From: Elusimicrobiota bacterium
GTDB lineage: Bacteria; Elusimicrobiota; UBA8919
Length of the DNA stretch: 64,000 bases
Direction: 5' to 3'
Assembly (NCBI GenBank): GCA_028718185.1
Contig: JAQUMH010000009.1
Coordinates: 37,764-101,763 of the forward strand
Below, in pieces: positions 28,455 through 64,000 of this stretch; position 1 is the stretch's first letter, and the number at the start of each line of letters is the position of its first letter. Under the pieces are notes generated by a model. The model saw nothing but the letters and a program-made list of their open reading frames with translations, searched no databases and was not told the origin of the DNA. The translations under genes and the position numbers were made by a program.

Positions 28455-29405
28455 TTATTCTTTTGCCCCAAACCTTATACCTAATGATATTCTGTGAGTG
28501 TCGCCTAAATCTTTTGTAGGTATAAACGCATAATCCATATCAAATGACGAACTTTCACCGGCTATTTTAAACCCGCCTCCTAATGTGTAACTCTCTTCAT
28601 CATAACCTATCTTATAACCTGCGCGGATACTTAACATCTCTGCTATCAATAATTCCATCCCAATGTTCTCTCTCATACTATCTGTGTCTAATCCATAATT
28701 AATATCGGCTGCTATCGTTAAATTATTCTCGCTTTCAAATACAGATAGCTTTTTGCCTAAACCGGCTTTTATATTACCGGGCAAACTGTCGCTGCCTACT
28801 TTGCCGCCAATGTTCTGGACTGCAAGGCCTAATTGTATCCCGCCTTTTACAGGAACATATTCTGCACCTAAATCCAAGCCAAAACCTGATGCACTGTCTG
28901 TGTCTATTTTTTGACTTACCATCTTCAAACTACCACCTATGTTTATTGTTTCATCTACCTGTTTGCCGTAACTTATCGCACCACCCATATCCTTCGCACT
29001 ATAATTGCCTAAGCTGCCTGCCGTATCATATGCTCCATAGACATCTTCTAATGTCTTGCGTATACTACCATAATTAAGGTACATTATCTGCAGCCCTATT
29101 GTTGAATCTTCACTTATGGGATGTCCTATTGCTAAATATTCGTAACTTATTCCTTCAAAATGTGATAAATGCATAAATGAAAGTTCGGTCGCACTGACCG
29201 AACCTAACCCTGCGGGATTCCAATACACGCTATTAACATCTTCTGCTACTGCTGCCTGCGCGCCACCCATGCCTTCTTGCTTGGCGCCTACTCCTAACTT
29301 CAAAAACTGCATTGTTGAACTGCCTACTCCGGCTTCTGCATTGCTGATACATGTTACACAAGTAAACATTACTGACAACATTACTGCACTTAACATCTTA
29401 AACAT
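28455..29405 (-). CDS. PorV/UPF0164-family outer-membrane beta-barrel protein, paralogue 1
   Basis: The called start is the ATG at 29405, preceded by GGAGGTAATT; an in-frame ATG at 29441 lacks a site. The protein has a signal peptide ending near SNAEA and the family signature FLKLGVGAKQEGMGGAQAAVAEDVNSVYWNPAGL, split here by its repeats of alternating strands to a C-terminal HRISLGIRFGAKE. In T9SS, PorV binds C-terminal signals of cargo in the outer membrane and passes them to the sortase. That role is inferred here from family and from the adjacent cargo gene. It is the first gene behind riboswitch leader 2 and is followed after about 570 bp by the GH172 giant. The other two paralogues in the window are closely similar. 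Confidence 0.88.
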   Translation of the reverse strand: MFKMLSAVMLSVMFTCVTCISNAEAGVGSSTMQFLKLGVGAKQEGMGGAQAAVAEDVNSVYWNPAGLGSVSATELSFMHLSHFEGISYEYLAIGHPISEDSTIGLQIMYLNYGSIRKTLEDVYGAYDTAGSLGNYSAKDMGGAISYGKQVDETINIGGSLKMVSQKIDTDSASGFGLDLGAEYVPVKGGIQLGLAVQNIGGKVGSDSLPGNIKAGLGKKLSVFESENNLTIAADINYGLDTDSMRENIGMELLIAEMLSIRAGYKIGYDEESYTLGGGFKIAGESSSFDMDYAFIPTKDLGDTHRISLGIRFGAKE

Positions 29406-29523
29406 AATTACCTCCGACCAACAGGATTCAGGATTCAGCAAACAGCAATAAGAATTCAGTAATTTGATGTTGATGATCCCGATTCTTATTTATAATGGAA
29501 TTTGTTATCGGGATTATTTACTC

Positions 29524-29545
29524 GGTCGGTGCAGTAGCTCCGACC
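29524..29545 (-). repeat. GGTCGG hairpin complementary to an upstream leader hairpin
   Basis: GGTCGG-TGCAGTAGCT-CCGACC type hairpin between terminator 2 and the PorV-like gene. Bases 29527-29543 are the exact reverse complement (17 nt) of 29834-29850 on the far side of the riboswitch, allowing long-range pairing. Confidence 0.6.
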
Positions 29546-29554
29546 TCCGTGAAT

Positions 29555-29674
29555 AAAAAAAAGAAGCTTATTAGAAGTAGTTAATTAGAGAATTAGTAAA
29601 TTAGAGAATTAGGGTTTACCCTTAATCAACTAATTAACCAATTAACTAATCAACTGGTTTCTAACAACTTCTTT
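29555..29674 (-). terminator. Riboswitch-linked intrinsic terminator, leader 2
   Basis: On the minus strand AAGAAGTTGTTAGAA pairs with TTCTAATAAGCTTCT across a long A/T-rich hairpin (AATTAGTTGATT repeats), followed by eight U (29562-29555). Confidence 0.7.
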
Positions 29675-29680
29675 TGTTTT

Positions 29681-29822
29681 CGATAACCTTGCTGGCTTGA
29701 TAGCCACAAGCGTGTAAACCGCTTGTGGTTTGTTGTTTGTCGGCAACCTGTTGGCTTTCACTATCTTAGCCCTGGGTTTTGCGAACTCATCAAGGTTTCC
29801 CTTGAGTAGCCTTTTCGGATTA
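29681..29822 (-). promoter_or_regulatory. Cyclic-di-GMP-I (GEMM-like) riboswitch with P3 insertion, copy 2
   Basis: The minus-strand RNA has GAAAAGGCUACUC, CAAGG-GAAA-CCUUG, GAUGAGUUCGCAAAACC, AGGGCUAAGAUAG, proximal GCCAACAGGUUGCCGA, a CCACAAGCG-CGCUUGUGG hairpin, then CUAUCAAGCCAGCAAGGUUAUCGA. It controls the PorV-like gene at 29405 and possibly genes beyond. Confidence 0.7.
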
Positions 29823-29945
29823 GTGCCCGGAGCTCGGAGCTACTGCACCGAGCGAGTTAATGCGCGGAATCCGGCTCAACCGAAACGGATGAGCACATAA
29901 TCCCGTTATTAACGTGGGAACACAATCCCGCAGTATGCGGGGTAA
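29823..29945 (-). ncRNA. Tandem GC-rich leader hairpins upstream of riboswitch 2
   Basis: Stem-loops CCCCGC-AUAC-UGCGGG, a CCCACGUU-AACGGG pair, an AUCCG-CGGAU pair and CUCGGUGC-AGUA-GCUCCGAG (29852-29833) follow one another, with AUUGUGUU and AUUAUGUGCUC spacers. Confidence 0.55.
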
Positions 29946-29988
29946 AACAACTGCATTGGATATAGATCTTTTTTATTAGTAATTGCTA

Positions 29989-30017
29989 TTGACAAATTTA
30001 AATTTTATCTGTATAGT
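29989..30017 (+). promoter_or_regulatory. Promoter of AraC-type gene 1
   Basis: Plus strand: TTGACA (29989-29994), 17-bp spacer, TATAGT (30012-30017), giving a leader of about 90 nt. It is placed face to face with the minus-strand promoter at 30049-30077, so the two transcripts would overlap at their 5' ends. Confidence 0.65.
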
Positions 30018-30048
30018 ATTTGTGTTTCTTCTTGTCCTTTCTAACTAA

Positions 30049-30116
30049 AGTATAACGTACAAAGTAAAAACTGTCAATTGCCAAAATCACTATTTTTTTA
30101 TCAAAAATCACACTAT
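30049..30116 (-). promoter_or_regulatory. Promoter of riboswitch leader 2 with adjacent operator-like repeats
   Basis: Minus strand: TTGACA (30077-30072), 17-bp spacer, TATACT (30054-30049). CAAAATCACTATT (30082-30094) and CAAAAATCACACTAT (30102-30116) lie just upstream. The same 13-base motif lies 11 bp (one helical turn) further from the -35 box in leaders 1 and 3. Confidence 0.65.
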
Positions 30117-31009: not shown

Positions 31010-31642
31010 CTAAGGTTCTGTAACAATCGGTTTTTCTGTTGCAGGGCTACCTTGCTCACTTTCAAATTTAAGATTTATGTAGTTAAAATTACCTACCCAC
31101 TCAGCGCCAGCAGTATCCATTGCCAACTTCATTGTATGTTTTCCTTCACTTAAATTAATTCCTGTCTTTGTTACTGTTTGCCATTTCTGAAAATCACCCG
31201 TGTCAGGAACTGTCATAGGACCTGTCTTATCTGCATCATCGAGCTCTACGTGGAAGTTACCGCCTTTACCACCACACGATACCCGCACTTCTACCGTGTA
31301 TGTTCCCGCGGTCTTTACATCTATTGTATATTTCAACCATTCACCTGGCAAAACCCAGCCGACATCATAACCGCCTTCACTGCAATTTTCTATATCTACT
31401 CCTTCATCAAGACGATATTGTTCCCCATAATTCCTTGCTTCTTTGTCGTGATATCCAACTCCTTCTCCCCCCTTATCAAAATCTTCTGCTTCAATCTTTA
31501 TATCTGCTACTGAACCTTTCTTTTTAGCAGCAGTTTTTTCTTCTTTATTTTTTTTCGTGATAACTTTCTTTTTCGCCTCAACCTGTCCAACACATGTTAA
31601 ACATATACCTAACACTAATCCTGCAATTAACCAGTTTCTCAT
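31010..31642 (-). CDS. Small secreted CBM6/35-type carbohydrate-binding protein
   Basis: This 210-residue protein has a signal peptide (MRNWLIAGLVLGICLTCVGQVEA), a lysine-rich linker (24-43) and one beta-sandwich CBM domain (about 46-195; IKIEAEDFDKGGEGVGYHD, EGVDIENC, GYDVGWVLPGEWLKYTIDV, WVGNFNYINLKF). The same domain type recurs inside all the giants. It has no C-terminal sorting domain. AGGAGG precedes the ATG by 8-9 nt. It follows the FG-GAP giant after 97 bp and ends that unit. The signal peptide is nearly the same as in the protein at 61833-62438. It probably binds glycans in the periplasm or outside the cell; a transport or sensing role is possible. Confidence 0.85.
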   Translation of the reverse strand: MRNWLIAGLVLGICLTCVGQVEAKKKVITKKNKEEKTAAKKKGSVADIKIEAEDFDKGGEGVGYHDKEARNYGEQYRLDEGVDIENCSEGGYDVGWVLPGEWLKYTIDVKTAGTYTVEVRVSCGGKGGNFHVELDDADKTGPMTVPDTGDFQKWQTVTKTGINLSEGKHTMKLAMDTAGAEWVGNFNYINLKFESEQGSPATEKPIVTEP

Positions 31643-31738: not shown

Positions 31739-34700
31739 TTATTTCACTAATCCTATTTTCCCGGTCTTCTTGTTACCAGCACTGTCTTCTATCTGATATA
31801 CATATACTCCTCTGCCTACTTTGTCGCCATCGGCATTCTTACCATCCCACTCTATCCAGCCAAGATTGCCAAAATCTATCTCTTTCAATTCTCTAACTAA
31901 TCCTCCGGATACGTTATACAACTTCATCACGCTGTTTACAGGCAGGTTCATTACCTTTAACTTTCCCAAAACCGCTGTAGTAGGATTGTAGGGGTTAGGA
32001 TAGACTCGGACATTGTTCATATCAGCAGATAAATAACTACCCAATATACGGTATGTTGAAAAATGTTTGACTGTTGCAGTTACTGTATTGTTTGTTTTGT
32101 CTACTGTCTGAATTCCTGTAACCAATTCCCAATCTGTCCCGGTCCAGTAGTAGATTCTAAGTCCATCCTCATTTAACGTTCCTATATCCGATGCTGTCCA
32201 TGGTATAGTTATATTAACTGCTCTTGTAAATACCTGGTCCTCCAATTTCGGCGCACTTTCACCAAATGTTAACTCGCCAAAATTATAACATATCGGATTA
32301 ACTGTGTTTACATATTTTATTGAGTTCTTCACTGCAGGTACCGCACTCGTCTTTATTGACGCAAGATACTTGTTCGTAGATAAGACTCCCGTAGGTATTA
32401 ATATCTTCAGTCCGTTAGCACCCCGTATTGTTCCACCCTGGTAGCCTACTAACTTAGAGATATACATATCATTGAAACTTATCACGATCGGCGCTGTTGT
32501 ATCGCCTGTTAGCTCTACCGTATTTATATCACTACGGAACGGTATTGAAACTTCCTTCTCGCCGGAATCTGCCCCGGTCAATGTTGAATCTGTTGTATCC
32601 AGAACACTACTCTTACTGTTCTTGGTTGTAAGTGTTACTGTTCCTGTGTAATCGGTCGCAATACTGTTCTCATCTACGTTATATACCTGAACTTTGAACT
32701 TCAAACTCGCAGCTGCAGATGCTCCTGTCTTGGTTGCAGTTGTCCCGTCATCGTAGTAATAAGTATATATCTTGTGCTTTAAGTTATATGTCTTGAAACT
32801 ATACTGCGATGATGTTGCAAGGTTACCGGTTGCATCTTTGCTATAAACCTTATAATAATATATTTTACCTTTCTGTAATCCGGTAATAGTAACACTGTGT
32901 AGCATATACTTTGCGGTATCTAACGTCGTTGTACTGCCCAGCGATGTTGTAAGTCCATATGCTACCTGCGAATCGGACGCCTCATCTGTATTCCACGTTA
33001 TTACTGCAGTATTCTGCGATACACCGGCTACAACATTGCTTATTACCGGTGCCTTAGTATCATTTGCTGTTGTTGTAAAACTGTAATCTCCGGTCGTAGT
33101 AGGGTTACCATTCATATCTGTCGACACTATCCGGTAATGATATAATGTATTTTCGGTAAGCCCGCTGAGTGTAACACTGTGGTTATATACTCCACCGGAA
33201 TCTGTTACAGGTGTTGAATTACCATAACTTGTTGTTAAACCATATTCTACTTTACTGGTAGATGGCTCATTCGTGGTCCATCTTATTACTATTCCACTGC
33301 CGGATATATTCGATGGTGTTACAACACTTACTACCGGTGGTGTTATATCAGCACTTAGTCTTATTATCTTAATGTAATTAAAATTACCGTTCCAATCTGC
33401 ACTGCCGGAATCCATTACTAATTTCATTATCTGGCTGCCGGAGGTAAGTGACACATTTGATGATACTTCTATATCAGTCCATACCTGAAAACCACCTGTC
33501 ACTGGTACACTTACAGATGGTGTTAGAATATATGGAGTTAAATTGTGTGTTCCAAACTCAATGTGTATTGGATTTCCGGCACTTGCAAGTCCGTTGGCTG
33601 CTCTTAGTATTATCTTGTATTCAGCAGTCTCACTCACACTTACACTATATTCCAACCATTCGGTTGGTAGCGTCCATCCTACATCGTACCCACCACCGGT
33701 ATCACCGCAAATCTCTATATCCACTGCTTCAGTTGTCCTGTATGCTCCGCCACTGTTGCCTGGTGTTGTATCATTATATGTCTCTCCTTCAGCCAAACCT
33801 GTTGTTACTGTATCATAATTTTCCACCTCTATAGTTGATGTTCCTATTCCTATCTGCCATGGCAATGCTGAACCATCAACATGATATGCATGCTGAGGTG
33901 AAGTGCCTGTTATTGTATATGCCACGCTATTTACTGAACTGTCGGTCATTGCTGCTTTGAATGCACGGGCTCGGACTGTCGCACTCGCAGTTAACGTGAA
34001 TGGTGCCGAATATAATATTGACGATGATGTTGGGTCTGTTATTCCATCTGTCGTATATCTTATCGTTGCTCCGTTGGTTGCACAGCCGAGTGTTACAGTA
34101 ACAAAATCTGAATATGTTCCTGCGCTTGGACTAATTGTCGGTGTTGCTACTGTGTTAGGTGTCTCTGCACTTATTCTTACTAATTTTATGTAGTTAAAAT
34201 CACCACACCATTCCGCTGTGCTGTTTTCCATAACTAACTTCATTATCTGGTTGCCTGCGGTAAGCGTTACCGAAGATGAGATTTCTACATCAGCCCAAGT
34301 ATCAAAACCACCTGTCGGCGGCACACCTATGGACGGTGTTGTACTATATGGTGATAAATTATGTGTACCAAATTCAAGGTGTATCGGACCGGCAGTATCC
34401 ATAAGTCCGTTAGCTGTCCTTAATATTACTTTATATTCACCGCCTTGATTCACATTTATGCTGTATTCCAGCCATTCACCGGGTTTCGCCCAACCAACCT
34501 GGTATCCGGCACCTGTATCAGAGCATGCTCTCACATCTACATCATCTGTTCTGTATTCATTACCGCTGTTACCCACCGTTGTATCACTATATGCCTCACC
34601 CTCTCCAGTACCACTTGTTACCATATCGTAATCTTCCATCTGTATAGTTGTCGTTCCTGTTCCTATTGACCAAGCCACCCCACCCGGGTATGCCTGCTGT

Positions 34701-37700
34701 TGTGAAACAGAACCTGCGGTTATTACTATTATTTGCGATGCTGTTGTCGTTGTTGCATTACTATTATCAGTTGCTTTCGCAGTTATACTATACGTTCCTG
34801 CACCAACACTGTTCCATGTGTAACTATACGGCGAACTTGTGTCTTCACCAAGCAGGGTGATGCCATTGTAAAATTCCACTTTGCTTACTGTTCCATCACT
34901 GTCTGATGCTGTAGCGTCTATTCGGACTGTCGCCGGCGCATTAGTACCGTTCGTTATCGCTATTGTGCTTATGCTTATTGTCGGTGGTTGAGAAGTTAAA
35001 TTCATATCCGCTAATATCTCATCTACTGTAAGTGCTACATCATATATCTTAACACCATCCATGGCACCGTTTAAAGGTTCTTGATTTGCGCCATTAACTC
35101 CTAACCTTAATGCAGCACCGGATGCTGTTATATTACCGGTTTGTGCAGTACTACCTCTTTCAACGCCGTCTACATATATCTTCATTGTAGCGCCGTTATA
35201 TACAGCAGCCACGTGATACCAGTTACTACCGGCGGTCAAGTTCTGACTGGCAGATAATAATTTAAGAGAACCCCCGATATTTAGAGCAAAACGCGGTGTT
35301 AATACTGTAGGATTGCTGCTAATCCAATCCCCATGCAGGGAATATGAATAATACGGGTCATTATGTGTGCCGTCTGCTGCGGGTTTCGCTATAAAGACTT
35401 GATATCCATTACTTGCAGCTATACTGTCTATCCTAACCCAGGTTATCAATGTTAACTGGTCACCATTTATATCTAACGATGTTGAATTAGGAACGCTGAC
35501 ATAATCATTAGTTCCGTCAAATTTTAACCCGGTACCTACTTTACCGGCAACCCAGCAAGTGCTGGTGTCCATATTAGTTAATGTACCATTATTATTATTG
35601 CCGGATGTATCTGTTGCTGTTGAACTACCTGATGTGCCTTCCATATCCCATTTGCCTACAGGAATAAGCGAACCTGAACTTTTGACTTTAATGCTGACTT
35701 GTGTACTACCGGTTTTATTAAGATTATCGGTCGCTACCACCCTTATAGTATAATTACCAGTTTTAACACTATTCCACGTGTAACTATACGGCGAAGTGTT
35801 GTCTGTTCCAAGTAAAGTATTGCCATTGTAAAAATCTACTTTTGAAACAGAAACATCATCATACGCTGTTGCATTTATTATTATATTTGAATTGTACTCA
35901 AATTCCTGATTAGGTGTAGGATTTGATATTACTACCACCGGTGCAGGATTATTATCGCCGCCACCACCAAAAGGATTGTCATTACGTAAGATATACATTA
36001 AACCACCGGTAGAACCATCAGAGGTAAAATTAGCTACCCATGTAATATTTACCATATCAAGGTCTCCATCACCATCTAAGTCAGATAGATATGCAGAGTT
36101 GTGAGTTTCCTTTGTTAACAATAAATTCTTAGTAAAACTTCCGGTTCCGTTGTTTTCCCATATTGATATCTCTTTGTTACCGTAAACTTCGCCGGTTACT
36201 ACATCTATATCTCCATCAAAATCCAAATCGGCAACACCCAGCGAGTTGGTTGATGCCTGCTTTACTATCTCATTTGAATTTCCCCAGTTAGTTGCTGTCT
36301 TCGGGTCTGCCGGACAGGTAAACCAATATGTACGACTTGTTTCTCTATTGGGGTTTGAACCATCCCAGACTTCATCTGTCATTACTAAATCAAGCCGGCC
36401 ATCACCGTTTAAATCTGCCAGCTCTACTCTGTCAGCTCCATCAGAGCCAGAAATTGTAGAAAGTGGGGATGCGTTGCCTATTGTGTGTTCTATCCAGTTA
36501 CCATTTGTTGCCGGATAGGGGTTTTCCCACCACACCACTGTCTGATTATCCGACTTCACTCCTGCAACATCTATATCTCCGTCCCCATCTATATCTCCTA
36601 CTGATATTCCTTGTGTATTATTACTATTGCTTATTTCAGTAACTTGCCAACTATCGGGGGTTTGAGGATTGACCAATGGTATCTGTATGTAATACACTCT
36701 TCCTTTCACTGTTCCAGGATTAGCAGGATCACCGGCAGCAATAACTATCTCTTCTCTGCCACCGGGAATTATTTGTGCCATTTTCATTCCCTGCGATTGT
36801 GAATGAAGGGTTGGAGGTATTTTGGTATTTGGTACAACCCGTATAGCCGTCCAATCGCCTGTCGTGTCTCCTGCCCCGGTTTTTTCTAACCAGTATACAC
36901 CGGGATTAGGAGTAAAACTAGAATTAAGTCCAAAAGCTATTACATCGGCATTTGCATCGCTATCTACATCGGTAACCAAACTGGCATCCACATTTACCGG
37001 GAATATTGTTCTTGTCCAGTTTCCGGTCATATCACCAGCAGGGTTTTTGTAGAAGTACTTTCCCGAAACTATATCCTTATACCCGTCATTATTCATATCT
37101 GCAGCAGCAATTCCAAACCACCTATACCAGCTACCGTACCCTGCTCTGGTTGTGTCTACTTCTTTATATGTCCAATTGGTAAGTCCTTTCTTTCCGCCAC
37201 CTGTCTGTAGCCAAACTGCTATCTCGCTCTCACCGGCAGGTTTACCCTGGTCTGCATAACTCTTCTGGAAAATATCAAGCCTGCCGTCACCATTAAAATC
37301 GCCTAATCTTGATTCGTGGTTATTCAGTCCTGTTCCTAATGATAAAGTTTCTGTAAAACCAGGATTAGCAGCACCGTCATTTTTATATATTAACATCCTG
37401 CCCGTAGCCGTGGCGTCATTCAATCCTGAAGTAAATATCTCAGCAAAGAAAATATCAATATCACCATCAGTGTCTAAATCTCCCACTCTTACACTATGTC
37501 CATATTTTACATTGGTATCTAACGTGTGTTTTGTCCAGTCAGAAGGTGTTCCTGATGTCCCTCCATTCCATTCGTACCATGCAAGAAAACCCGTGAAATC
37601 TCCAGCTCCAAAAACTACCTCAGGTCTACCGCCTTTCTTTAACTGTCCTACTGCTACCCGGCCCCTCACGGCACTTTCTGCTGTATCTATATCACTTCGT

Positions 37701-41410: not shown

Positions 41411-41540
41411 ATTTTTACCTCCATTTACACCAGCTCTTATGTTATTATGTTCTAATGTTATCATATTATCAAATTATATTAATTTATCAATCTTTTAATC
41501 TTTCAATTCTCTAATTCACTAATCCACTAATTATTTTCTT

Positions 41541-42670: not shown

Positions 42671-42761
42671 AAAAAAAAGTTTCTTAAAAAACTAGATAAA
42701 TACTTAATTAAGTTTTTTCAACCTAATTAACTAATTCGCTAATTCTCTAATCAACTTTTTT
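42671..42761 (-). terminator. Riboswitch-linked intrinsic terminator, leader 3
   Basis: On the minus strand AAAAAAGTTGATTAGA can pair with CTAGTTTTTTAAGAAACTT over an A/T-rich hairpin; eight U follow (42678-42671). It is nearly the same as the terminator in leader 4. Confidence 0.65.
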
Positions 42762-42766
42762 GTTTT

Positions 42767-42910
42767 CGATAACCTTGCTGGCTTGATAGCTACAAGCGTG
42801 TAAACCGCTTGTGGTTTGGCGTTTATCGGTAACCTGTGTTGGCTCTATCTATCTTAGCCCTTGGTTTTGCGAACTCATCCCGCTTTCGCAGGAGCAGCCT
42901 TTTCGGATTA
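42767..42910 (-). promoter_or_regulatory. Cyclic-di-GMP-I (GEMM-like) riboswitch with P3 insertion, copy 3
   Basis: The minus-strand RNA has GAAAAGGCUGCUC, CCUGC-GAAA-GCGGG, GAUGAGUUCGCAAAACC, AGGGCUAAGAUAG, proximal GCCAACACAGGUUACCGA, a CACAAGCG hairpin, then CUAUCAAGCCAGCAAGGUUAUCGA. It leads the PorV 2 / FG-GAP unit. Confidence 0.7.
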
Positions 42911-46294: not shown

Positions 46295-46317
46295 ATGTTT
46301 TTTCAACGACTAAACAG

Positions 46318-53977: not shown

Positions 53978-53997
53978 AATTAACACCTCAATAAGTT

Positions 53998-54155: not shown

Positions 54156-57100
54156 TCACTTTACCAGTCCTACCTTCCCTGTCTTCTTGTTACCGGCAGC
54201 GTCTTCTATCTTGTATATATATACTCCTTTGCCTACCTTGTCGCCATTGTCATTCTTACCATCCCACTCGAGCCAGCCTAGATTACCATAATCTATTTCT
54301 CTTAACTCCCTTATTATATCGCCTGTCACAGTATACAACTTCACTATACTGTTTATAGGCAGGTTTGTTATCTTCAATTTACCATTGACTGCCGTTGCAG
54401 GATTATACGGGCTTGGATAGACTTTTATATTATTTAAATCTACTGTAACATAACTGCCTAATATCCGGTATGTTGAAAAGTGTGTTACTGTCGCTGTTAC
54501 CGTATTGTTTAATTTGTCTACCTTCTGCACTCCTGTTACTAACTCCCAATCTGTCCCACTCCAGTAATATATCCTAAGTCCATCTTCGTTTAATGTCCCT
54601 ATGTCCGCTGATGTATATGGTATCGTTATGTTCACTGCTCTTGTGAATGTCTGGTTCTCTAATACAGGAGCACTATTGCTAAATGTCAGCTCGCCAAAAT
54701 CATAACATATCGGATTTACCGTGTTAGCATATTTCATTGTGTCTCGAACAGCAGGCACTGCACTTGTCTTTATTGATGCTAAATATTTATTAACTGATAA
54801 GACTCCTGTCGGTATCAGTATCTTTAGTCCGTTTGCACCTCGTATTGTTCCTCCCTGATAACCTACCAACTTACCAATATACATATCACTGAAATTTATT
54901 ACTATCGTAGATGTTGTATCTCCTGTTAGCTCTATTGTGTTTATATCACTTCTAAACGGGATTGAAACTTCTTTCTCGCCTGCATCCGTCTCAAGTAATG
55001 TTGAATCTACTGTATCCAAAACACTACTCTTACTGTTCTTTGTTGTAAGTGTTATTGTCCCGGTATAGTCAGTCGCTATGCTGTTCTCATCCATATTATA
55101 TACCTGCACTTTAAACTTCAAACTCGCTGATGCTGACGCACCTACCTTGGTCGTTGTTGTCCCGTCATCGTAGTAATATGTGTATATTATATGTTTTATG
55201 TTGTTGTTGTATGTCTTAAAACTGGATTGTTCTGATTCTGCAAGATTGTTAGATGCATCTTTGCTGTAAACCTTATAATAATAGGTCTTTCCTTTTAGTA
55301 ACCCGCTAATGGAAACACTATGTAACCTAGTCATTGTGGTATCTAATGTCGTTGTACTGCCCATCGTTGTTGTTTGTCCATATGCTAATTGCGAATCTGA
55401 GTTCTCATCGGTATTCCAGGTTATCACTGCTCCATTTTGTGTTACTCCGACTTTCACATTGCTTATTACTGGCGGATTAGGATCATTAAGAATTGTTGCA
55501 AAACTATAATCAACTGTCGTTGTAGGATTACCGTTCATATCTACGGACACCATCCGGTAATGATAGGTTGTGTTCTCAGCAAGCCCGCTTAGTGTAACAC
55601 TGTGGTTATATACTCCTCCGGTATCGGTTATAGCGGTAACACTGCCATAACTTGTTGTTAAGCCGTACTCTACTCTACTGTTAGATAACTCATTTGTTGT
55701 CCAGGTTATCACTATTGAATTCCCTGTTATACTTATTGTCCCCGGAGTACTAACTACTGGCGGTGTCGTATCAGAACTCAGTCTTATTATCTTAATGTAA
55801 TTTAAATTACCGCAATGGTCGGCTGCTCCTGATTCCATGACCAGCTTCATTATTTGGTTGCCTGCGGTAAGTACCATATCAGACGAAACTTCTATATCTG
55901 TCCAGGTCTGCCAGCCACCGGTATTTGGTACATTTACTGATGCTGTTGTCCTATATGGAACTAAATTGTGCGAACCAAATTCAAGATGTACAGGACCACC
56001 GGCACTCCCGGCTGCTCCTCTTAGGATTATCCTGTATTCAGCAGTCTCGCTCACATTTATACTGTATTCTAACCATTCGCTTGGAATTGTATATTCTACA
56101 TCGTAGCCACCACCGATATCTGTACAATTTTCTATATCTACCGCCTCGTTTGTCCGGTATTTATTGGGGATGTTGCTGGGAGTTGTATCATTATACGCCT
56201 CTCCCTGTCCGCCTGTATCATAGTTCTCTAACTCTATTGTTGTTGTGTTTGCTCCTATCTGCCACGGGGTACCTGCCGGTGTGTTTCCAAATGACATCTG
56301 TCCTGTTACTGTTATTGAAAAATATCCATTTGTAGTATCAGTAGTCCCGCCAACTATCTCTACTAACCTTATTAAACAACTACTGCTTGCATTACTCGGT
56401 AATGTTACGACTTCATTACCATCATTCGCTGTGTTGGCTACTAATATACTCCAATTTGTCCCGCCATCTACAGATATCTGGAGCATTACATTCCCTACTC
56501 CACCAACACTTGTCCATGTTACTGTCTGCTGGCTGCCGGCTAGTAAATTCTCGCCACCGTTCGGGTAGGTTATTGTTATGCTCTTTGCCGGCGTTGTCCC
56601 GCTTGTCCCGTATACTTCAAACTCATTTAGTGAATATCCCCAATTCGTTCCTCGCGCTGTGCCATACATACGGATATATCTGCCACTACCGCTAAGTCCA
56701 CTTAGTGTTTCTACACCACCGGTTCCATTTACCTTTGTATATATCGCTGTCCAATTTATATCATTACTGGATACTTGGAGCTGGTAGTCTCTTCCATATG
56801 CGCCTGCGTCTTGCCACCTTAGCACTACCTGGGTTATATTATATGTATTTACTAAATCTATTCTTAGCCATTGCGGGTCGCTAAATTGTGATGACCAACG
56901 AGTCGAGACATTCCCATCTACTGCCTTAGTCGCTTCTAATCCTGCGCCCTCTTCCGACGATGCTGTCGCTGTTTTACCTATAGCTATATTCCCTTGGGTA
57001 GTCGTCTGTCCACTTACTACATTGGATATCCCTGACCAGTTAGGTACTTCATCGCCTACCTTCATAGCAAAATAATATGTTATCCCGGCATTTAAACCCT

Positions 57101-60100
57101 GAACTGTATAACTCTGGTTATTTCCGGCTACTAATGGAGTAGGTTCGCCACTGCACTGTGTTACACCTACACTGTCCCAATTGCTACCGGTTATACTAAA
57201 TGTCGCATAGCGAATATCATATACGCTTGCTGTGCCTATATTATTATCATCACCTACTGATGTCCAATTTAACGCTATACTATTACTGGTTGCACTGCCT
57301 GTTGCCAATGTGTTTATCACTGTGGGTGGTGTCGTGTCAGGTGCATTTGTTGCTTTATATACTACATTGGATATTCCTGACCAGTTTGATACTTCATCAC
57401 CTACCTTCATCGCAAAATAATATGTTATCCCCGAACTTAAACCATTGACCGTATAACTTTGATTATTACCAGCTACCAACGGCGTCGGCTCTCCACTACA
57501 TTGTGTTACACCTGCCAAATCCCAGTTGCTACTTGTTATTCCAAATGTCGCATAGCGAATATCATACACACTTGCCGTACCAATATTATTATCATCGCCT
57601 ACTGAGGTCCAACTTAATGCTACACTGTTACTGGTTGCAACACCTGTCGCTAATGTGTTTATCGCTGAGGGTGATATCGCGTCAGGTCCTGTTATTGTAT
57701 AGTCAGCAGAATTTTCAATACTGGTAGTCATTCCACTCTTGGTAGCTATTGCTCTCAACTTGCAGTTCTGGGTTATTGTAACTGCCAACGGCGAACTTCC
57801 GGAAATAGTGGTTCCTCCGCCGGTTGGTGAAGGAACACTCCCATCAATAGTATATCTTACGGTTGCTCCTGAAGTACCACATTTAATTATAACCGGTGTT
57901 CCTGATGAGTATTTTCCTTTAAAAAGAGAAAATGAAGGAGGATAGACTATGTTTGGATTTGAATAATAAGGGTCGGGATTTTCCATTACAGGAGGAAGAA
58001 CTCCTCCTCCACTGAATAATTGACTTAGGAATATATAGTTATGTTCACCCCACGTATCCAACTTTTGCCTTACCTGATTAAAAGTAGTCGTTGTGTCCTT
58101 AGTATAATCTGCGTCCCAACCCATCTGCTCTGTCATAATACTTGGATATGTTTGTACTAATTCTCTTACACGAACTCCCCCCATACAATTTCCATCATAT
58201 GCACAATCACCTATCCAGTATGCATGCCATCCTACACTGGCATTTGAATAATCTATTGGTGTCAATGCAAGCGATGGTGTTGTTCCTGAAGAGACTACTG
58301 TGACAAAAGATAAATTTGGGTCACAGGTCTGGCAAACTACAGGTGATGGGAAAGACCACATTATAATGTGTGTATCGGGTGCTCTATCACGTATGTATTT
58401 ATACATAAATGCCTGGTAATCTATATCCTTCTGTGTCCAATGGTCTATTCTATATCCTATCGGTTCATTGTCCCATTCATATATAACATGGGTTTTGTCT
58501 TTGTACCGCCTGGCAACTTTATCCCAAAACTCAAGATGGTCGGCTTTGGTAAGATTGGCTGCCTGGATATTGTTAAACTTCCATGTATCTTCATAAACCC
58601 CGTACCCGATAGGATGATGACTATAATTAATAATTATATACATTCCCAGTTCTTCAGCATACTGTACTGCTTTGTCTATTTGTGTGATACACCAATCTGT
58701 TGTTGTCCAACCAAGGCCACTAAGACCGAAAGTTGTCCTCTGGTCCCTGTAAACAAATAACCTTCCTGTATTAAAATGAAATTCGTCTCTCGCTCGCTGC
58801 CATTCGGCTTTACTGTTTGTCCCTGCACCATCCGGATTTGACGGCCAGCTTGAGTTTCCTACTCTTGGAGTATCTCCTCTTAATGGCGCACCATTATCGG
58901 CACATAACTGACCGTTTAGTATTATAGGACGACCCCTTCCAATATTACTTTGTGCAGTCGTCTGACCGGTTACTATATTGGATATCCCTGACAAATTTGG
59001 AACTTCATCCGCTACCTTCATAGCAAAATAATAAGTTATTCCTGAACTTAAACCCTGGACGGTATAACCCTGATTAGTTCCGGCTACTAACGGAGCAGGT
59101 ACTCCACTGCATTGTGTTACACCTGCCAAATCCCAGTTGCTGCCGGTTATATTAAAAGTCGCATAGCGAATATCATATGTCGTAGCTGTACCAGTTTTAT
59201 CATCATCACCTACTGACGTCCAACTTAACGCTATACTGTTACTCGTTACACTACCTGCAACTAATGTGTCTATTGCCGAAGGCGCTTTGGTGTCGGCTGT
59301 ATTTGTTGCTCTGCTTACTACATTGGATAGTCCTGACCAGTTGGTGGGCACTTCATCTCGGACCTTCATCGCAAAATAATAGGTTATCCCAGAACTTAAA
59401 CCCTGGACTGTATAACTCTGATTAGTTCCGGCTACTAACGGAGCAGGTACTCCACTACATTGTGTCGCTGTTGCCCAATTACTATCATTTATATTTACAT
59501 TTGAATATCGGATATCATATACACTCGCTGTTCCTGTGTTATTATCATCACCTACTGACGTCCAACTTAACGAAACACTGTTGCTCGTTGCAACACCTGT
59601 CGTTAATGTATTTACAGCTGAAGGTGATATAATGTCAGGTGTACTTGAATTGCCATATATTTTAAACTCGCGTAAACAAAGATTATACCACCCATCCATT
59701 CCTATAGTTTTTCCCGATGGTGATATTATTGTTGTTACATATAACCGAACATATCTACCCCTATCGTTACCACCTAATACTATATCTTCAGTACTCGCAA
59801 AATCACCTCTGACTCCATTTGTCTGTGTGTATATTGGTGTCCAGTTTATTTTATCATCCGATATTTGTATTGCATAAGATTTACTATATGAATTGTATGG
59901 ATCCCTTCCCCATTCTAATATAACTTCTGTTATCTTGTATGTTGCACCTAAATCTACATATATCCATGTAGGCTCTATACGTTGTGCTATCCAACCAGTA
60001 TTTAAATCACCATCGACTGCTTTACTCTCTATATCTGTTCCTTCTACATTTAATGCTTTCGCTGATTTATTTAATGCTAAATTTGTAAAATTCTCAGTAA

Positions 60101-61646
60101 TCGTACCCTGCGCATTATTGGATACATCAGACCAGTTACCAACCTCATCTGCTGTTCTTATCGCAAAGTAATAAAGCGTGTTCGGCTTCCTGCCGGGTAC
60201 TGTAAAGGTCTCTGAACTATAAGGTGCTTTCGGGTGGAACCCACCGTAAATACTTGCTGTTCCCCAGTTGGCATTTGTTATTGGAAAAGTTGCACTCCGT
60301 ATACTATACTCAAACGCTGTGCCACTCATTTCATTATTACCAGGCGCACTCCAACTTAAAGTCATTGTATCACGACCTTTACTACTTACTACCAAACTGT
60401 TTATCACTGCGGGTGATGATGTGTCTAACGTCCAGGAAGGCGGAGATAACTTTAGCATTACAACATTTGTTGATTCTACAATTGTTGTGTAACTTCCACT
60501 AAATGTTCCTTTATCACTATTTGCCCATATATCAAATACCTTCATACCGGTTCCTGAGGGCAATCCTATATCAGACCAGTTAACTGTTATATTTTGTGCT
60601 GATGTCCCTCTATTATATATTAATACTGCTGTACAACCATTTATTAAAGGCCTTGCTATAATGTCTACATTACCCACTATTTTTACCCTTCTGCCTGCTA
60701 TTCCAAGTCTATCCTGATTTATTGCTATTGCTTCTTTGTTTTTATACATTGTAATCCTATCTAGTGTTGCCTGTGTCATATTGCGAAAATCAATAATAAT
60801 ATCCAATGATACGGCTAACATGCAATTAAGACTAAATGACACTCTCTCATCACCAACAGGCGCATTATCCTCAGGAGCATTCCAATGTCCAGGACCCGCA
60901 TATTTATATAGAGTATCCACTATCTTGTCATAATTTGAACCATCATAACCTGCTCCATCGCCTGCTGTCCGCCAAGAATTACCTACCGGGTCTCCCCATT
61001 CCCATACTGAATTCGCACCATAGTTACTTATTTCATAAATCATAGAACGTCCTGTTCTAAGTATACAGTCTCGCATTAGTGCATATCCCGCTATTTCCTC
61101 TTCCTTGCTACCAGGATGAAAAGTACACTCGTCATAATACACACCATCAATACCCCATGCTGCAAATTCGTCTGCATCCTGTTGTTCATGGCCATAACTA
61201 CCTAGTTTTAGACTGCAATTCTGAGGTCCAGGTGATGAAGATATTTCCATCTTTAGTCCTTTAGAGTGAGTATAATCAACTATATATTTTATACCATTCA
61301 CACTCACACCATTAACAATAACAGCTGGAAATTTGTTTGTATCTTCTTTCTGGCTTCCATCCGGATTAAGGGTATCAGTACTCTGCCAACCATCACATAG
61401 ACCCTCGAGCCATATATATCCAGCATCCCGCAGTCCACTTGATACCATACCATCTGCCATCAACTTAAGATTATCCCCACTTATATTTGTAGTAAAAACA
61501 CACCAAGCATTACAACCCATTTTTGGTGTACGAACTAACCCATTATCCCAAGCATATGCAGGTGTTCTTAATGAAATAAATAATCCTATACAAATACAAA
61601 CAAATAAAAAACATGGACTACTTAGCTTATTTTTCATCTTTTTCAC
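54156..61646 (-). CDS. Giant secreted GH27-like + GH5-like glycosidase with CBMs and T9SS-like C-terminal domain (paralogue 1)
   Basis: The called start is a GTG at 61646, with GGAGGT 7 nt upstream; it aligns with the ATG of its paralogue. An ATG at 61661 lies inside the ribosome-binding site. Length 2496. The GH27-like domain (about 35-390) keeps D172 (YYDEC) and D230 (WRTAGD), but sugar-binding positions differ from its paralogue: DDGWQ reads CDGWQ and KYD reads YYD. Order after that is Fn3, CBM32 (519-665), two Fn3, GH5-like barrel (899-1222; EWDNEP acid/base, IMTEQMG nucleophile), chitobiase-C, two Fn3, CBM32, Kre9-like, CBM6, two Fn3 and the C-terminal module (2147-2496). It has its own promoter. 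GH27 activity may be altered or lost; the GH5-like part looks active. Confidence 0.9.
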   Translation of the reverse strand: MKKMKNKLSSPCFLFVCICIGLFISLRTPAYAWDNGLVRTPKMGCNAWCVFTTNISGDNLKLMADGMVSSGLRDAGYIWLEGLCDGWQSTDTLNPDGSQKEDTNKFPAVIVNGVSVNGIKYIVDYTHSKGLKMEISSSPGPQNCSLKLGSYGHEQQDADEFAAWGIDGVYYDECTFHPGSKEEEIAGYALMRDCILRTGRSMIYEISNYGANSVWEWGDPVGNSWRTAGDGAGYDGSNYDKIVDTLYKYAGPGHWNAPEDNAPVGDERVSFSLNCMLAVSLDIIIDFRNMTQATLDRITMYKNKEAIAINQDRLGIAGRRVKIVGNVDIIARPLINGCTAVLIYNRGTSAQNITVNWSDIGLPSGTGMKVFDIWANSDKGTFSGSYTTIVESTNVVMLKLSPPSWTLDTSSPAVINSLVVSSKGRDTMTLSWSAPGNNEMSGTAFEYSIRSATFPITNANWGTASIYGGFHPKAPYSSETFTVPGRKPNTLYYFAIRTADEVGNWSDVSNNAQGTITENFTNLALNKSAKALNVEGTDIESKAVDGDLNTGWIAQRIEPTWIYVDLGATYKITEVILEWGRDPYNSYSKSYAIQISDDKINWTPIYTQTNGVRGDFASTEDIVLGGNDRGRYVRLYVTTIISPSGKTIGMDGWYNLCLREFKIYGNSSTPDIISPSAVNTLTTGVATSNSVSLSWTSVGDDNNTGTASVYDIRYSNVNINDSNWATATQCSGVPAPLVAGTNQSYTVQGLSSGITYYFAMKVRDEVPTNWSGLSNVVSRATNTADTKAPSAIDTLVAGSVTSNSIALSWTSVGDDDKTGTATTYDIRYATFNITGSNWDLAGVTQCSGVPAPLVAGTNQGYTVQGLSSGITYYFAMKVADEVPNLSGISNIVTGQTTAQSNIGRGRPIILNGQLCADNGAPLRGDTPRVGNSSWPSNPDGAGTNSKAEWQRARDEFHFNTGRLFVYRDQRTTFGLSGLGWTTTDWCITQIDKAVQYAEELGMYIIINYSHHPIGYGVYEDTWKFNNIQAANLTKADHLEFWDKVARRYKDKTHVIYEWDNEPIGYRIDHWTQKDIDYQAFMYKYIRDRAPDTHIIMWSFPSPVVCQTCDPNLSFVTVVSSGTTPSLALTPIDYSNASVGWHAYWIGDCAYDGNCMGGVRVRELVQTYPSIMTEQMGWDADYTKDTTTTFNQVRQKLDTWGEHNYIFLSQLFSGGGVLPPVMENPDPYYSNPNIVYPPSFSLFKGKYSSGTPVIIKCGTSGATVRYTIDGSVPSPTGGGTTISGSSPLAVTITQNCKLRAIATKSGMTTSIENSADYTITGPDAISPSAINTLATGVATSNSVALSWTSVGDDNNIGTASVYDIRYATFGITSSNWDLAGVTQCSGEPTPLVAGNNQSYTVNGLSSGITYYFAMKVGDEVSNWSGISNVVYKATNAPDTTPPTVINTLATGSATSNSIALNWTSVGDDNNIGTASVYDIRYATFSITGSNWDSVGVTQCSGEPTPLVAGNNQSYTVQGLNAGITYYFAMKVGDEVPNWSGISNVVSGQTTTQGNIAIGKTATASSEEGAGLEATKAVDGNVSTRWSSQFSDPQWLRIDLVNTYNITQVVLRWQDAGAYGRDYQLQVSSNDINWTAIYTKVNGTGGVETLSGLSGSGRYIRMYGTARGTNWGYSLNEFEVYGTSGTTPAKSITITYPNGGENLLAGSQQTVTWTSVGGVGNVMLQISVDGGTNWSILVANTANDGNEVVTLPSNASSSCLIRLVEIVGGTTDTTNGYFSITVTGQMSFGNTPAGTPWQIGANTTTIELENYDTGGQGEAYNDTTPSNIPNKYRTNEAVDIENCTDIGGGYDVEYTIPSEWLEYSINVSETAEYRIILRGAAGSAGGPVHLEFGSHNLVPYRTTASVNVPNTGGWQTWTDIEVSSDMVLTAGNQIMKLVMESGAADHCGNLNYIKIIRLSSDTTPPVVSTPGTISITGNSIVITWTTNELSNSRVEYGLTTSYGSVTAITDTGGVYNHSVTLSGLAENTTYHYRMVSVDMNGNPTTTVDYSFATILNDPNPPVISNVKVGVTQNGAVITWNTDENSDSQLAYGQTTTMGSTTTLDTTMTRLHSVSISGLLKGKTYYYKVYSKDASNNLAESEQSSFKTYNNNIKHIIYTYYYDDGTTTTKVGASASASLKFKVQVYNMDENSIATDYTGTITLTTKNSKSSVLDTVDSTLLETDAGEKEVSIPFRSDINTIELTGDTTSTIVINFSDMYIGKLVGYQGGTIRGANGLKILIPTGVLSVNKYLASIKTSAVPAVRDTMKYANTVNPICYDFGELTFSNSAPVLENQTFTRAVNITIPYTSADIGTLNEDGLRIYYWSGTDWELVTGVQKVDKLNNTVTATVTHFSTYRILGSYVTVDLNNIKVYPSPYNPATAVNGKLKITNLPINSIVKLYTVTGDIIRELREIDYGNLGWLEWDGKNDNGDKVGKGVYIYKIEDAAGNKKTGKVGLVK
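55162..56108. repeat. 947-bp tract identical to 47547-48493
   Basis: Partner of 47547-48493, in the same place within the paralogous gene. Confidence 0.85.
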
Positions 61647-61694
61647 AATTAATACCTCCATATGAATGTTCTTGTATTCTTACGTTCTAAATTC

Positions 61695-61832: not shown

Positions 61833-62438
61833 CTATTCCACCTTTTTTATAACAATATAATCTAAATTCAGTCCGGGAGAATATACTTGCTGCAATTTTA
61901 AAACATGTTCTCCTGCTTTAATATTGAACTTTAGAGGAGTTTGTCCATCCGGATTCAGGACAATCCATGGTTGCCATTCGGTTGCTTGATAGCCCCATCC
62001 TCCGGTAACTTTAAAGAAAATCCTTTCTAAATCTGCTGTTGGATATGCGCCATCAATAATTAGCGAGCGACAAGCATCCTCCGGAGTAGCATATTGTAAT
62101 GTAATTGTATATAAACCGGTTTTAGGTATAGAAAATTTCCATTCAACCCATTGCCCGGCATTATTCCAATTCCCAATTGTTTTTTTACTTGCTCCTACTT
62201 TATTTTCTTCAATTTTTACTTCACCGCCGCCTTGTCCGCTAAAATCTTCTGCCTCAATTTTTATTTCTTCCCCAGATACATTTTGCTTAGGAGCAGTTTC
62301 ACTTTTGTTAGTTGTTGTTTCACTTTTCTTAGCAGTTGTAGTAGTTTTCTTACTGACAGATTTTTTTCTTGCCTCAACCTGCCCCACACAAGTTAAACAC
62401 ATTCCAAACACAATCCCGAAAACAATCCAATTCCTCAT
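61833..62438 (-). CDS. Small secreted CBM35-like carbohydrate-binding protein
   Basis: The called start is the ATG at 62438 with AGGAGGT 8 nt upstream. The 201-residue protein has a signal peptide (MRNWIVFGIVFGMCLTCVGQVEA), a Ser/Thr/Lys-rich linker (about 25-58) and one beta-sandwich domain (about 60-200; EIKIEAEDFSGQGGGEVKIE, NWNNAGQWVEWKFSIPKTGLYTITLQY, GLNLDYIVIKK). The signal peptide closely matches that of the protein at 31010-31642, but the binding domain is of a different subfamily. It follows the PorV paralogue 3 after 110 bp. A role as periplasmic or cell-surface glycan binder is inferred. Confidence 0.85.
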   Translation of the reverse strand: MRNWIVFGIVFGMCLTCVGQVEARKKSVSKKTTTTAKKSETTTNKSETAPKQNVSGEEIKIEAEDFSGQGGGEVKIEENKVGASKKTIGNWNNAGQWVEWKFSIPKTGLYTITLQYATPEDACRSLIIDGAYPTADLERIFFKVTGGWGYQATEWQPWIVLNPDGQTPLKFNIKAGEHVLKLQQVYSPGLNLDYIVIKKVE

Positions 62439-62460
62439 ATTCAACTACCTCCTATTAAAT

Positions 62461-62545
62461 TCTGTTATAGGGTTATAGTGTTATAGGGTTTTAACTCTAC
62501 AAACTCTATGAACTCTATAACTCTATAACTCTATAATTCTTTTTC
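62461..62545. repeat. Intercistronic TATAGAGTT hairpin spacer, copy 4
   Basis: GTTATAGGGTTATAGTGTTATAGGG faces AACTCTATAACTCTATAA. It sits directly after the PorV 3 stop codon, as the other copies follow other stop codons. Confidence 0.6.
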
Positions 62546-62548
62546 CTT

Positions 62549-63499
62549 TTACTCTTTCCCTCCAAACCTTATACCTAACGATATCCTGTGTGTATCGCCT
62601 AAATCTTTTGTCGGAACAAACGCATAATCTAAATTAAATGTTGAACTTTCACCGGCTATCCTAAACCCGCCACCTAATGTATATGTCTCTTCATCATATC
62701 CGAGCTTGTAGCCTGCTCGGATTCCTATCATCTCCGCGAGCATTAACTCCATACCGATATTCTCTTTCGTAATTGCAGTGTCTAATCCATAATTGACATC
62801 AACTGCGAGCGTTAAATTGTTCTCACCTTCAAATGCTGAGAACTTCTTGCCTAAACCTGCCTTTATATTACCCGGCATACTATCACTTCCTACTTTACCG
62901 CCTAAATTCTGTACCGCTAAACCTAATTGAATTCCACCTTTAACAGGAACATACTCTACTCCTAAGTCTAATCCAAACCCGGATGTATTGTCTGTGTCTA
63001 TCTTCTGGCTTGCTATCTTCAAACTGCCACCTACATTTATTGTATCATCTACCTGTTTGCCGTAACTTATCGCGCCACCAATATCCTTTGGACTGTAACT
63101 GCCCACACTACCTACTGCATCATATGCGCCTGCAGAATCTTCTAACGTCTTATCAATACTGCCATAATTAAGGTACATTACCTGTAAACCAATTGTAGAA
63201 CTTTCACTAACAGGATGTCCGAACGCCAAATACTCGTAACTTATTCCTTCAAAATATGATAAATGCATAAAGGAGAATTCGGTCGCACTAACTGACCCTA
63301 ACCCTGCCGGATTCCAATACACGCTATTGACATCTTCGGCTACTGCTACCTGCGCGCCACCCATTCCTTCCTGCTTGGCACCTACTCCTACTTTTAAAAA
63401 CTGCATTGCTGAGCTGCCGACACCGGCTTCTACTTTGCTGATACACATAATTCCAGTAAACAATGTTGCTAACATAACGACATTCATCACTTTTAACAT
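62549..63499 (-). CDS. PorV/UPF0164-family outer-membrane beta-barrel protein, paralogue 3
   Basis: The called start is the ATG at 63499 with GGAGG 5 nt upstream; the open frame extends to 63622 through the leader hairpin, which is unlikely to be translated. The 316-residue protein has a signal peptide (to about VEA), the FLKVGVGAKQEGMGGAQVAV and NSVYWNPAGLGSV signature and ends HRISLGIRFGGKE. It heads the unit with the small CBM35-like gene and the two GH27 giants, whose C-terminal domains are its likely clients. Confidence 0.88.
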   Translation of the reverse strand: MLKVMNVVMLATLFTGIMCISKVEAGVGSSAMQFLKVGVGAKQEGMGGAQVAVAEDVNSVYWNPAGLGSVSATEFSFMHLSYFEGISYEYLAFGHPVSESSTIGLQVMYLNYGSIDKTLEDSAGAYDAVGSVGSYSPKDIGGAISYGKQVDDTINVGGSLKIASQKIDTDNTSGFGLDLGVEYVPVKGGIQLGLAVQNLGGKVGSDSMPGNIKAGLGKKFSAFEGENNLTLAVDVNYGLDTAITKENIGMELMLAEMIGIRAGYKLGYDEETYTLGGGFRIAGESSTFNLDYAFVPTKDLGDTHRISLGIRFGGKE

Positions 63500-63514
63500 A
63501 TTTACCTCCATTTT

Positions 63515-63628
63515 CTGAAATTTATTGAAACTTATTGAAATTTGTTGTTGATTATCCCGATTCTTATTTATAATTGAATATGTAATCGGGATTGTTTTAT
63601 TGGTCTCCGGTAGGGGACTCAATAAAAC
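63515..63628 (-). repeat. Spacer repeats and CCUACCGG-loop hairpin, leader 4
   Basis: TTGAAATTTA-type units lie at 63515-63545. A hairpin with GUUUUAUUG/CAAUAAAAC arms (63594-63628) matches the one at 13949-13983 except for one loop base (CCUACUGG to CCUACCGG). Confidence 0.6.
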
Positions 63629-63720
63629 AAAAAAAAAGTTTCTTAAAAAACTAGATAATTACTTAATTAAGTTTTTAAAACCTAATTAACTAATTCGCTA
63701 ATTCTCTAATCAACTTTTTT
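63629..63720 (-). terminator. Riboswitch-linked intrinsic terminator, leader 4
   Basis: AAAAAAGTTGATTAGAG pairs with CTAGTTTTTTAAGAAACTT on the minus strand and is followed by nine U (63637-63629). Confidence 0.65.
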
Positions 63721-63725
63721 GTTTT

Positions 63726-63907
63726 CGGTAACCTTGCTGGCTTGATAGTTAGATCTTTGTAATTTCTATTAATTTCTACTTTATTTCCACTTATTACAAG
63801 ATCTACTTTAATTGTTTTGTCGCTTATCGGCAACCTGTTGGCGTTACTATCTTAGCCCTTGGTTTTGCGAACTCATCAAGGTTTCCCTTGAGCAGCCTTT
63901 TCGGATT
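63726..63907 (-). promoter_or_regulatory. Cyclic-di-GMP-I (GEMM-like) riboswitch with P3 insertion, copy 4
   Basis: The minus-strand RNA has GAAAAGGCUGCUC, CAAGG-GAAA-CCUUG, GAUGAGUUCGCAAAACC, AGGGCUAAGAUAG, proximal GCCAACAGGUUGCCGA and distal CUAUCAAGCCAGCAAGGUUACCGA. Here the inserted hairpin is a different sequence, AGAUCUUGUAAU paired with AUUACAAAGAUCU, instead of the CCACAAGCG stem of the other copies. Confidence 0.7.
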
Positions 63908-64000
63908 AGCACTCGCAGGTCGGAGCTACTGCACCGACCGAGAATGCAACCCCGCAGTATGCGGGGCAAACAGCATAGTATACTTTTTTCTCTTTTTGTT
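63908..64000 (-). ncRNA. Leader hairpin array upstream of riboswitch 4, promoter outside window
   Basis: CCCCGC-AUAC-UGCGGG and CUCGGUCGGUGC-AGUA-GCUCCGACC stem-loops are visible up to 63967. The last bases to 64000 are A/T-rich; by comparison with leaders 1-3 the promoter should lie just past the right edge. Confidence 0.5.

Follow-up and report, generated by a model that had tools for sequence, protein, structure and literature searches.

Why should a bacterium outside the Bacteroidota place a PorV-family gene of its own at the head of each of several operons for giant exported proteins? The type IX secretion system (T9SS) has been described as restricted to the Bacteroidota, with a single PorV for all type A cargo (PMC12618676). 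A sequence-only reading of a 64,000-nucleotide stretch of an Elusimicrobiota genome (contig JAQUMH010000009.1; hereafter, the window) had noted three PorV genes behind similar leaders, each followed by giant proteins with a common C-terminal domain. This observation was confirmed and extends beyond the window to the whole genome. Within the window, three modules occupy the minus strand from about 17116 to 63907, each running from a leader to a PorV-family gene to giant cargo (2368-3241 aa) with the common domain, of about 100 aa, at the cargo ends.

Module 1 begins with a leader at 29566..29821 (aptamer 29739-29821, including a first 3′ half; second 3′ half at ~29681-29704; terminator-like stem to ~29566) and PorV-family gene 1 (28455..29405, with an ATG read from the sequence at 29405). 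Its two cargo genes lie outside the interval of the earlier reading (28455-64000): one of 2368 aa (20912..28018; DUF2961, F5/8C, CBM6, CBM4_9 and FN3; signal domain 20915-21214) and one of 1240 aa (17116..20838; GH5-like, CBM6 and PKD; signal domain 17119-17418). The module ends in a GH123-like protein of 587 aa (15246..17009), in which the signal-domain HMM search found no signal domain. Module 2 consists of a leader (42676..42909; aptamer 42825-42909, terminator-like stem to ~42676), PorV-family gene 2 (41627..42577), a cargo of 3241 aa (31739..41464; FG-GAP, CHB_HEX_C, LamG and CBM35; signal domain 31742-32041) and, at its downstream end, a CBM6 protein of 210 aa (31010..31642). Module 3 has a leader with a second 3′ half (63626..63907; aptamer 63826-63907, terminator-like stem to ~63626) and PorV-family gene 3 (62549..63499, ATG read at 63499), separated by a small CBM35-like protein (203 aa, 61833..62444) from two giants with the same domain order. 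These measure 2501 aa (54156..61661; signal domain 54159-54458) and 2481 aa (46541..53986; GH27-like (Melibiase_2), GH5, F5/8C and CBM6; signal domain 46544-46843), and a GH127 protein of 670 aa (44294..46306) closes the module. A fourth leader (13985..14224; aptamer 14080-14224, terminator-like stem ~13985-14085 with z -5.76) directly heads a cargo gene of 2355 aa with no PorV between them (6728..13795; GH39-like, GDSL lipase, CBM6, F5/8C and FN3; signal domain 6731-7030, from the signal-domain HMM). All these features are on the minus strand, and the Pfam domains show a cargo rich in glycosidases, in keeping with the surface-glycosidase system proposed earlier.

The window PorV genes 1 and 3 are 80-82% identical to gene 2. 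In the two window copies scanned, the NCBIfam PorV/PorQ family NF033709 scores 172.9 and 177.6 bits (cut-off 90); window copies reach 66-71 bits for the T9SS PorV equivalog NF033710, below its cut-off of 250. A window PorV sequence profile matches the solved PorV 6h3i (E 8e-37), and the structure model is a 14-strand FadL-type barrel whose best fold matches are 8gl6_F and 6h3i_F. The closest solved structure is the PorV of the SprA translocon, which, with the NF033709 scores, bears out the assignment to the PorV family. A PorP/SprF identity, hinted at by Pfam and by the type B precedent, was rejected on the NCBIfam scores (TIGR03519: 18.2 and 25.6 bits, cut-off 90.55) and the solved-structure profile.

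The cargo proteins have a signal-like N-terminus. In sequence profile and fold comparisons their C-terminal domain matches PorZ, PorU and translocon-bound substrate domains; similarity to the FlgD Ig-like domain appears in the same comparisons. With the T9SS model TIGR04183 (cut-off 23), one window cargo scores 23.8 bits and three others score 16.9-21.4; two give no match. Judged by profile and modelled fold, the domain is T9SS type A-like, as had been proposed in general terms; a type B assignment, raised by weak CHU_C matches, was dropped on profile, fold and TIGR04183.

Homologues of porU and sov had been named as the genes to look for elsewhere in the genome. The second was found: a SprA/Sov homologue exceeds the SprA_N cut-off and scores 119.8 bits (E 6e-35) with TIGR04189, below the equivalog cut-off of 200. 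A divergent SprA/Sov is present in all 23 Elusimicrobiota genomes searched. The PorU sortase (C25 peptidase) gave no match in this genome (96.7% complete) or in five named Elusimicrobia, in a search that was positive in Flavobacterium and Ignavibacteria genomes. A search for the PorM/GldM motor, run without a positive control, found no match in the genome. Literature searching turned up nothing direct on T9SS in Elusimicrobia.

Matches to the c-di-GMP-I riboswitch lie ~330-420 nt upstream of each window PorV gene. Singly they are weak: the three PorV-heading leaders score 23-27.5 bits with RF01051 and the fourth leader 34.6, all below the gathering score of 35. Genome-wide, the RF01051 search returned 38 matches at E <= 10, six of them above the gathering score and none of these six in the window; members in relatives reach 83.9 bits. 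The P2/P3 architecture is kept, with 99.8% of cells paired versus 16-39% in slid controls, and across leader copies P2 shows four pairs with changes on both sides. Such compensated variation indicates that the RNA structure is kept. Terminator-like stems follow the aptamers (z -5.6 to -7.4). It is the body of ~38 related copies, together with the six strong matches, the stem covariation and the strong members in relatives, that supports the c-di-GMP-I assignment of the window leaders. From sequence, then, they are c-di-GMP-I-like aptamers with a terminator-like stem, in keeping with the earlier proposal, and c-di-GMP control of the modules is predicted. GGDEF genes are present in the genome.

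Like GEMM-I (RF01051), the leaders have a GAAA-capped P2, a CGCAAA strand, P3, a GGUUnCCGA 3′ strand and the downstream stem. Unlike typical GEMM-I, they score low, number ~38 in one genome, precede PorV and T9SS-like cargo genes, and mostly (in most of the expanded copies) combine one 5′ half with two alternative 3′ halves. The ligand-contact G is kept; the contact C is kept in the first 3′ half, and several copies have T instead in their second half. We take these contacts to be numbered G20 and C92. The position numbers come in part from PMC9049102. Two further leader candidates were discarded, one as a false positive of the pattern inside a gene (C2:90733) and one as a duplicate (C11:42306).

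The analysis covered the neighbourhoods of PorV, riboswitch and signal-domain genes, which make up ~0.7 of the 3.03 Mb of the genome. The genome holds at least 43 PorV-family genes, 33 of the 43 no more than 250 nt from a signal-domain cargo gene; the C-terminal domain of the cargo was matched 86 times. The next gene is PorV in 23 of 38 class-I c-di-GMP riboswitch-like leaders, and PorV lies within 1 kb of 22 of 39 leaders counted (binomial tail ~1e-37). The association recurs in relatives, as the earlier reading would have it: PorV stands behind the riboswitch at 14 of 32 sites against 1.15 expected (~12-fold over chance). This pattern suggests that one signal, c-di-GMP, could control whole sets of exported surface enzymes.

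The reading that we consider probable is T9SS-like export under predicted c-di-GMP control, in which each PorV copy serves as a carrier for one class of cargo and perhaps also as its anchor. A T9SS-like outer-membrane route would export and display giant proteins that bind and degrade glycans, the window being part of a genome-wide set of such modules. The divergent SprA/Sov, whose homology is established, is the likely pore; the operon's own 14-strand barrel would collect cargo there through the C-terminal domain, as Flavobacterium PorV does. Because PorU was not found, the barrel may stay bound as a surface anchor. The 15 window-type PorV copies look interchangeable, so each module may bring its own supply of carrier. 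In some 38 transcription units, c-di-GMP would set expression by way of a class-I riboswitch and the terminator stem behind it, ligand and direction being presumed. A fuller version, which we advance more tentatively, envisages a sortase-less T9SS branch in Elusimicrobiota, with class-specific PorV carriers that are also lasting anchors and riboswitches (many with competing 3′ halves) that jointly set export capacity and cargo. The resemblance to Bacteroidota T9SS type A (PMC10994853; PDB 6H3I, 8GL6) lies in the PorV-family barrel, the type A-like signal domain and the SprA homologue. Unlike that system with its one general carrier, more than 40 PorV-family genes occur here adjoining cargo, PorU was not found, SprA is divergent, and the phylum and the predicted riboswitch control are different.

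Alternatively, each PorV could be dedicated to its adjoining cargo, as SprF is to SprB, the modules being alternative surface programmes. Cognate shuttles have precedent (PMC12618676, PMC9143113): in Flavobacterium johnsoniae, too, the shuttle gene adjoins its cargo and has several paralogues, and a carrier and anchor role is likely for both. The non-riboswitch layout of this genome repeats the cognate PorP/SprF order, with the shuttle directly downstream of cargo. Unlike those systems, the barrel here is of the PorV/PorQ family and the signal domain type A-like. Between classes, distances among PorV types and among signal-domain types correlate (Mantel r 0.56, p 0.0005), and nearest neighbours match in some non-window pairs (C1:492116 with C2:38348; C2:194942 with C1:936768). 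Within the window type the distances are uncorrelated (r 0.08, p 0.35, 12 pairs, with limited power), and one-to-one pairing found no support for this type. Several modules also have two to three cargo genes for one PorV, and in one leader-PorV unit (C15:27426) the next leader comes before any cargo. The proposed dedication of PorV copies to cargo sets thus holds at class level and finds no support among window-type pairs; the copies appear specific to a signal-domain class and not to a single cargo, which leaves strict pairing unlikely. Modules inherited as units could also produce the class-level correlation, with no binding specificity involved.

Equally doubtful is that the modules stem mainly from recent duplication and homogenisation around a repetitive leader, with PorV and riboswitch carried along, many perhaps redundant and of little regulatory meaning. 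The expansion is lineage-specific (35 RF01051 matches here versus 0-11 in 17 relatives), palindromes are repeated around leaders, and contigs break at leaders or signal domains. Against this, window-type PorV frames are open and ~89% conserved per column, P2 variation is compensated, and the riboswitch-PorV link is also present in distant families with few copies. A role for the barrels as FadL-like porins that take up sugars or further glycosidase products, with the C-terminal domain as a FlgD-like Ig domain put to another use, is very improbable. Weak FadL/TodX matches in Pfam, profile and fold searches and the FlgD Ig-like similarity speak for it. Against it, PorV leads the FadL relatives by several orders of magnitude in fold E-value (2.7e-16 versus 1.6e-9) and by ~30 in profile E-value, the genome has a SprA homologue, and barrel class tracks signal-domain class.

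Both PorV-family genes and a SprA homologue turned up across the Elusimicrobiota searched, and PorV is here cargo-linked and class-matched. With several PorV and signal-domain classes in a single genome, the specificity of the carriers can be put to a direct test; the leaders offer a natural set of ~38 related switches. We found no paper joining c-di-GMP riboswitches with type IX secretion. Riboswitches of this type stand before carrier and cargo genes and, in three relatives (G025, G020 and G017), before the sprA-like gene of the likely pore.

The window contains three PorV-family genes, all on the minus strand (28455-29405, 41627-42577 and 62549-63499), each with a closely similar leader upstream and giant cargo genes downstream that share a C-terminal domain of about 100 residues. 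The repeated modules described in the sequence-only reading were thus recovered. A fourth leader (14080-14224) lies directly upstream of cargo, with no PorV gene between. Two AraC-type regulators with cupin domains (30115-30894 and 43416-44207, plus strand) diverge from the module 1 and module 2 leaders, and a minus-strand gene at 5528-6133, adjoined by an IS200-like transposase (4951-5511), fuses a MerR-type DNA-binding domain to a response-regulator receiver domain.

Two of the window PorV copies score 173-178 bits against the NCBIfam PorV/PorQ family (cut-off 90). Against the PorV, PorQ and PorV2 equivalogs they stay below the cut-offs, and against PorP/SprF far below it. A PorV profile retrieves the solved PorV structure (6h3i, E 8e-37). 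The AlphaFold model (pLDDT 87.8) predicts 14 strands, its best matches among solved structures being PorV chains in SprA translocon complexes. The closest PorV relatives with a name come from Elusimicrobia and from further candidate phyla, at 34-41% identity in the best segment. The genome itself falls in the phylum Elusimicrobiota: relative G054, listed under its phylum, has an rpoB match whose position coincides exactly with that in G006, the genome of locus L060 (Elusimicrobia bacterium RIFOXYA2_FULL_39_19). The profile of the cargo signal domain retrieves PorZ and PorU C-terminal domains as well as substrate domains of translocon structures, and a fold search with the predicted model (pLDDT 77) is concordant. 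One window cargo reaches the TIGR04183 cut-off and others fall just short; FlgD Ig-like domains are likewise similar, so that the fold alone is no proof.

Taken singly, the window leaders match the c-di-GMP-I riboswitch weakly (23-34.6 bits; gathering score 35), making the window alone insufficient for the assignment. Leaders of this genome read by pattern have in common CCGAAAAGGC, a GAAA-capped stem, CGCAAA and GGGCUAAGAUA. In the P2 stem both sides have changed in 4 of 6 pairs and 99.3% of cells are paired; slid versions of the whole leader structure give 16-39%. Shuffle counts for this covariation are not probabilities, the alignment rows being related copies. Downstream of the aptamer, folding predicts a long A+U stem with a T run (z -5.6 to -7.4). 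In most expanded leaders two alternative 3′ halves, GCCAACAGGUUGCCGA and CUAUCAAGCCAGCAAGGUUACCGA, flank a variable hairpin. Since AUCGA replaces ACCGA in the second half of several copies, the first may be the half that binds the ligand. Such a pairing of a single aptamer 5′ half with two alternative 3′ halves (e.g., 29681-29821) is unusual for a riboswitch; canonical copies at C5:4296 and C1:651849 (other contigs of this genome) hint at it too. Palindromic short repeats such as GTTTTATTGAGTCCCCTACCGGAGACCAATAAAAC recur next to leaders (63580-63950 and around others) and may have aided module spread. The genome encodes eight GGDEF domains, four of them strong, making c-di-GMP production plausible.

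Across the stretches examined, this genome (3.03 Mb, 96.7% complete) carries 43 PorV-family genes, 33 of which have a signal-domain gene within 250 nt; among the remaining 10, three precede genes that a contig end truncates, and for one the examined stretch stops within its cargo. The whole genome yields 86 signal-domain matches; one, at C3:141248-141559, lies within an open frame of 18319 aa. Twenty-two modules read leader-PorV-cargo (15 with window-type barrels, 7 with a second type), and most other PorV genes lie just downstream of their cargo. PorV is the next gene for 23 of 38 riboswitch-like leaders and cargo for several more; three lie at contig ends, with no downstream sequence to read.

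Distances among PorV proteins and among signal domains correlate over 35 PorV-cargo pairs (Mantel r 0.56, p 0.0005; A and B in this test label PorV sequence classes, not T9SS type A/B signals), as they do in the non-window classes alone (r 0.30, p 0.003). The correlation supports matching at class level and is not proof of binding specificity, because joint descent of modules can produce it. Within the 12 window-type pairs it vanishes (r 0.08, p 0.35), which, with limited power, speaks against one-to-one dedication. The suggestion that PorV copies serve particular cargo sets therefore appears to stand between classes but not within the window type.

Of the porU/sov homologues sought elsewhere in the genome, as the sequence-only reading advised, a probable pore was found and the sortase was not. 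A 1726-aa SprA-like protein is encoded at C12:19125-24305 (SprA_N above cut-off; TIGR04189 E 6e-35, under the equivalog cut-off), and SprA-like matches occur in 23 of 23 Elusimicrobiota genomes (Flavobacterium control, 2794 bits). A search for the C25 sortase PorU, positive in Flavobacterium and Ignavibacteria, gave no match in this genome or in five named Elusimicrobia genomes; GldM was not found here by a search without positive control. Given these results and the divergent SprA homologue, the system is called T9SS-like rather than T9SS.

Beyond the observed genes, domains, folds, RNA structure and linkage, we infer secretion, anchoring, ligand and switch direction; c-di-GMP may turn expression either on or off. 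Most likely, c-di-GMP would set the states in which module transcription runs past the terminator stem, PorV would be made together with its own module's cargo, and cargo would cross via SprA and be picked up at its signal domain by PorV. As no sortase was found, PorV may additionally hold cargo at the surface, as has been suggested of the Flavobacterium pair SprF and SprB (PMC9143113). Two known systems come nearest: the PorV/SprA type A route (PMC10994853), with which this one shares a PorV-type barrel and a type A-like signal, and cognate PorP/SprF-type B pairs (PMC12618676), which it resembles in having shuttle genes adjoining cargo; it mixes the two.

The association of PorV with riboswitches extends to relatives. 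Among the 13 further Elusimicrobiota genomes that had hits, 32 riboswitch sites are followed by 6 kb or more of contig; PorV lies within the next 6 kb at 14 of them, where 1.15 would be expected (P 3e-11). A sprA-like gene is the first after a riboswitch in two relatives (G025 and G020) and the third in another (G017). Loci named Sumerlaeota, Ignavibacteria, Delongbacteria and UBP11 likewise have PorV next to a signal-domain gene. Riboswitch matches number 35 in the window's genome versus 0-11 in 17 relatives, making the large set a lineage-specific expansion. In several relatives (G018, G025, G041, G043, G048, G050) a giant open frame, about 4500-5800 aa long, comes after a riboswitch and a smaller gene.

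A canonical riboswitch at C3:49856-49936 heads an operon (locus L026:1084-12276; C3:50083-61275) that begins with PorV carrying TPR repeats. The next product, of 652 aa, combines the FliG middle and C-terminal domains with TPR (TIGR00207, 120 bits); after it come a protein of 1163 aa, one with a CHU_C tail and a barrel with a LysM tail. Nearby lie genes for a response regulator with a GGDEF domain and a PilZ-TPR protein (L026:15027-15959 and 17777-19663). Like gene orders, judged by gene sizes with domains read in the window's genome only, stand behind riboswitches in G016, G019, G048, G050 and G054.
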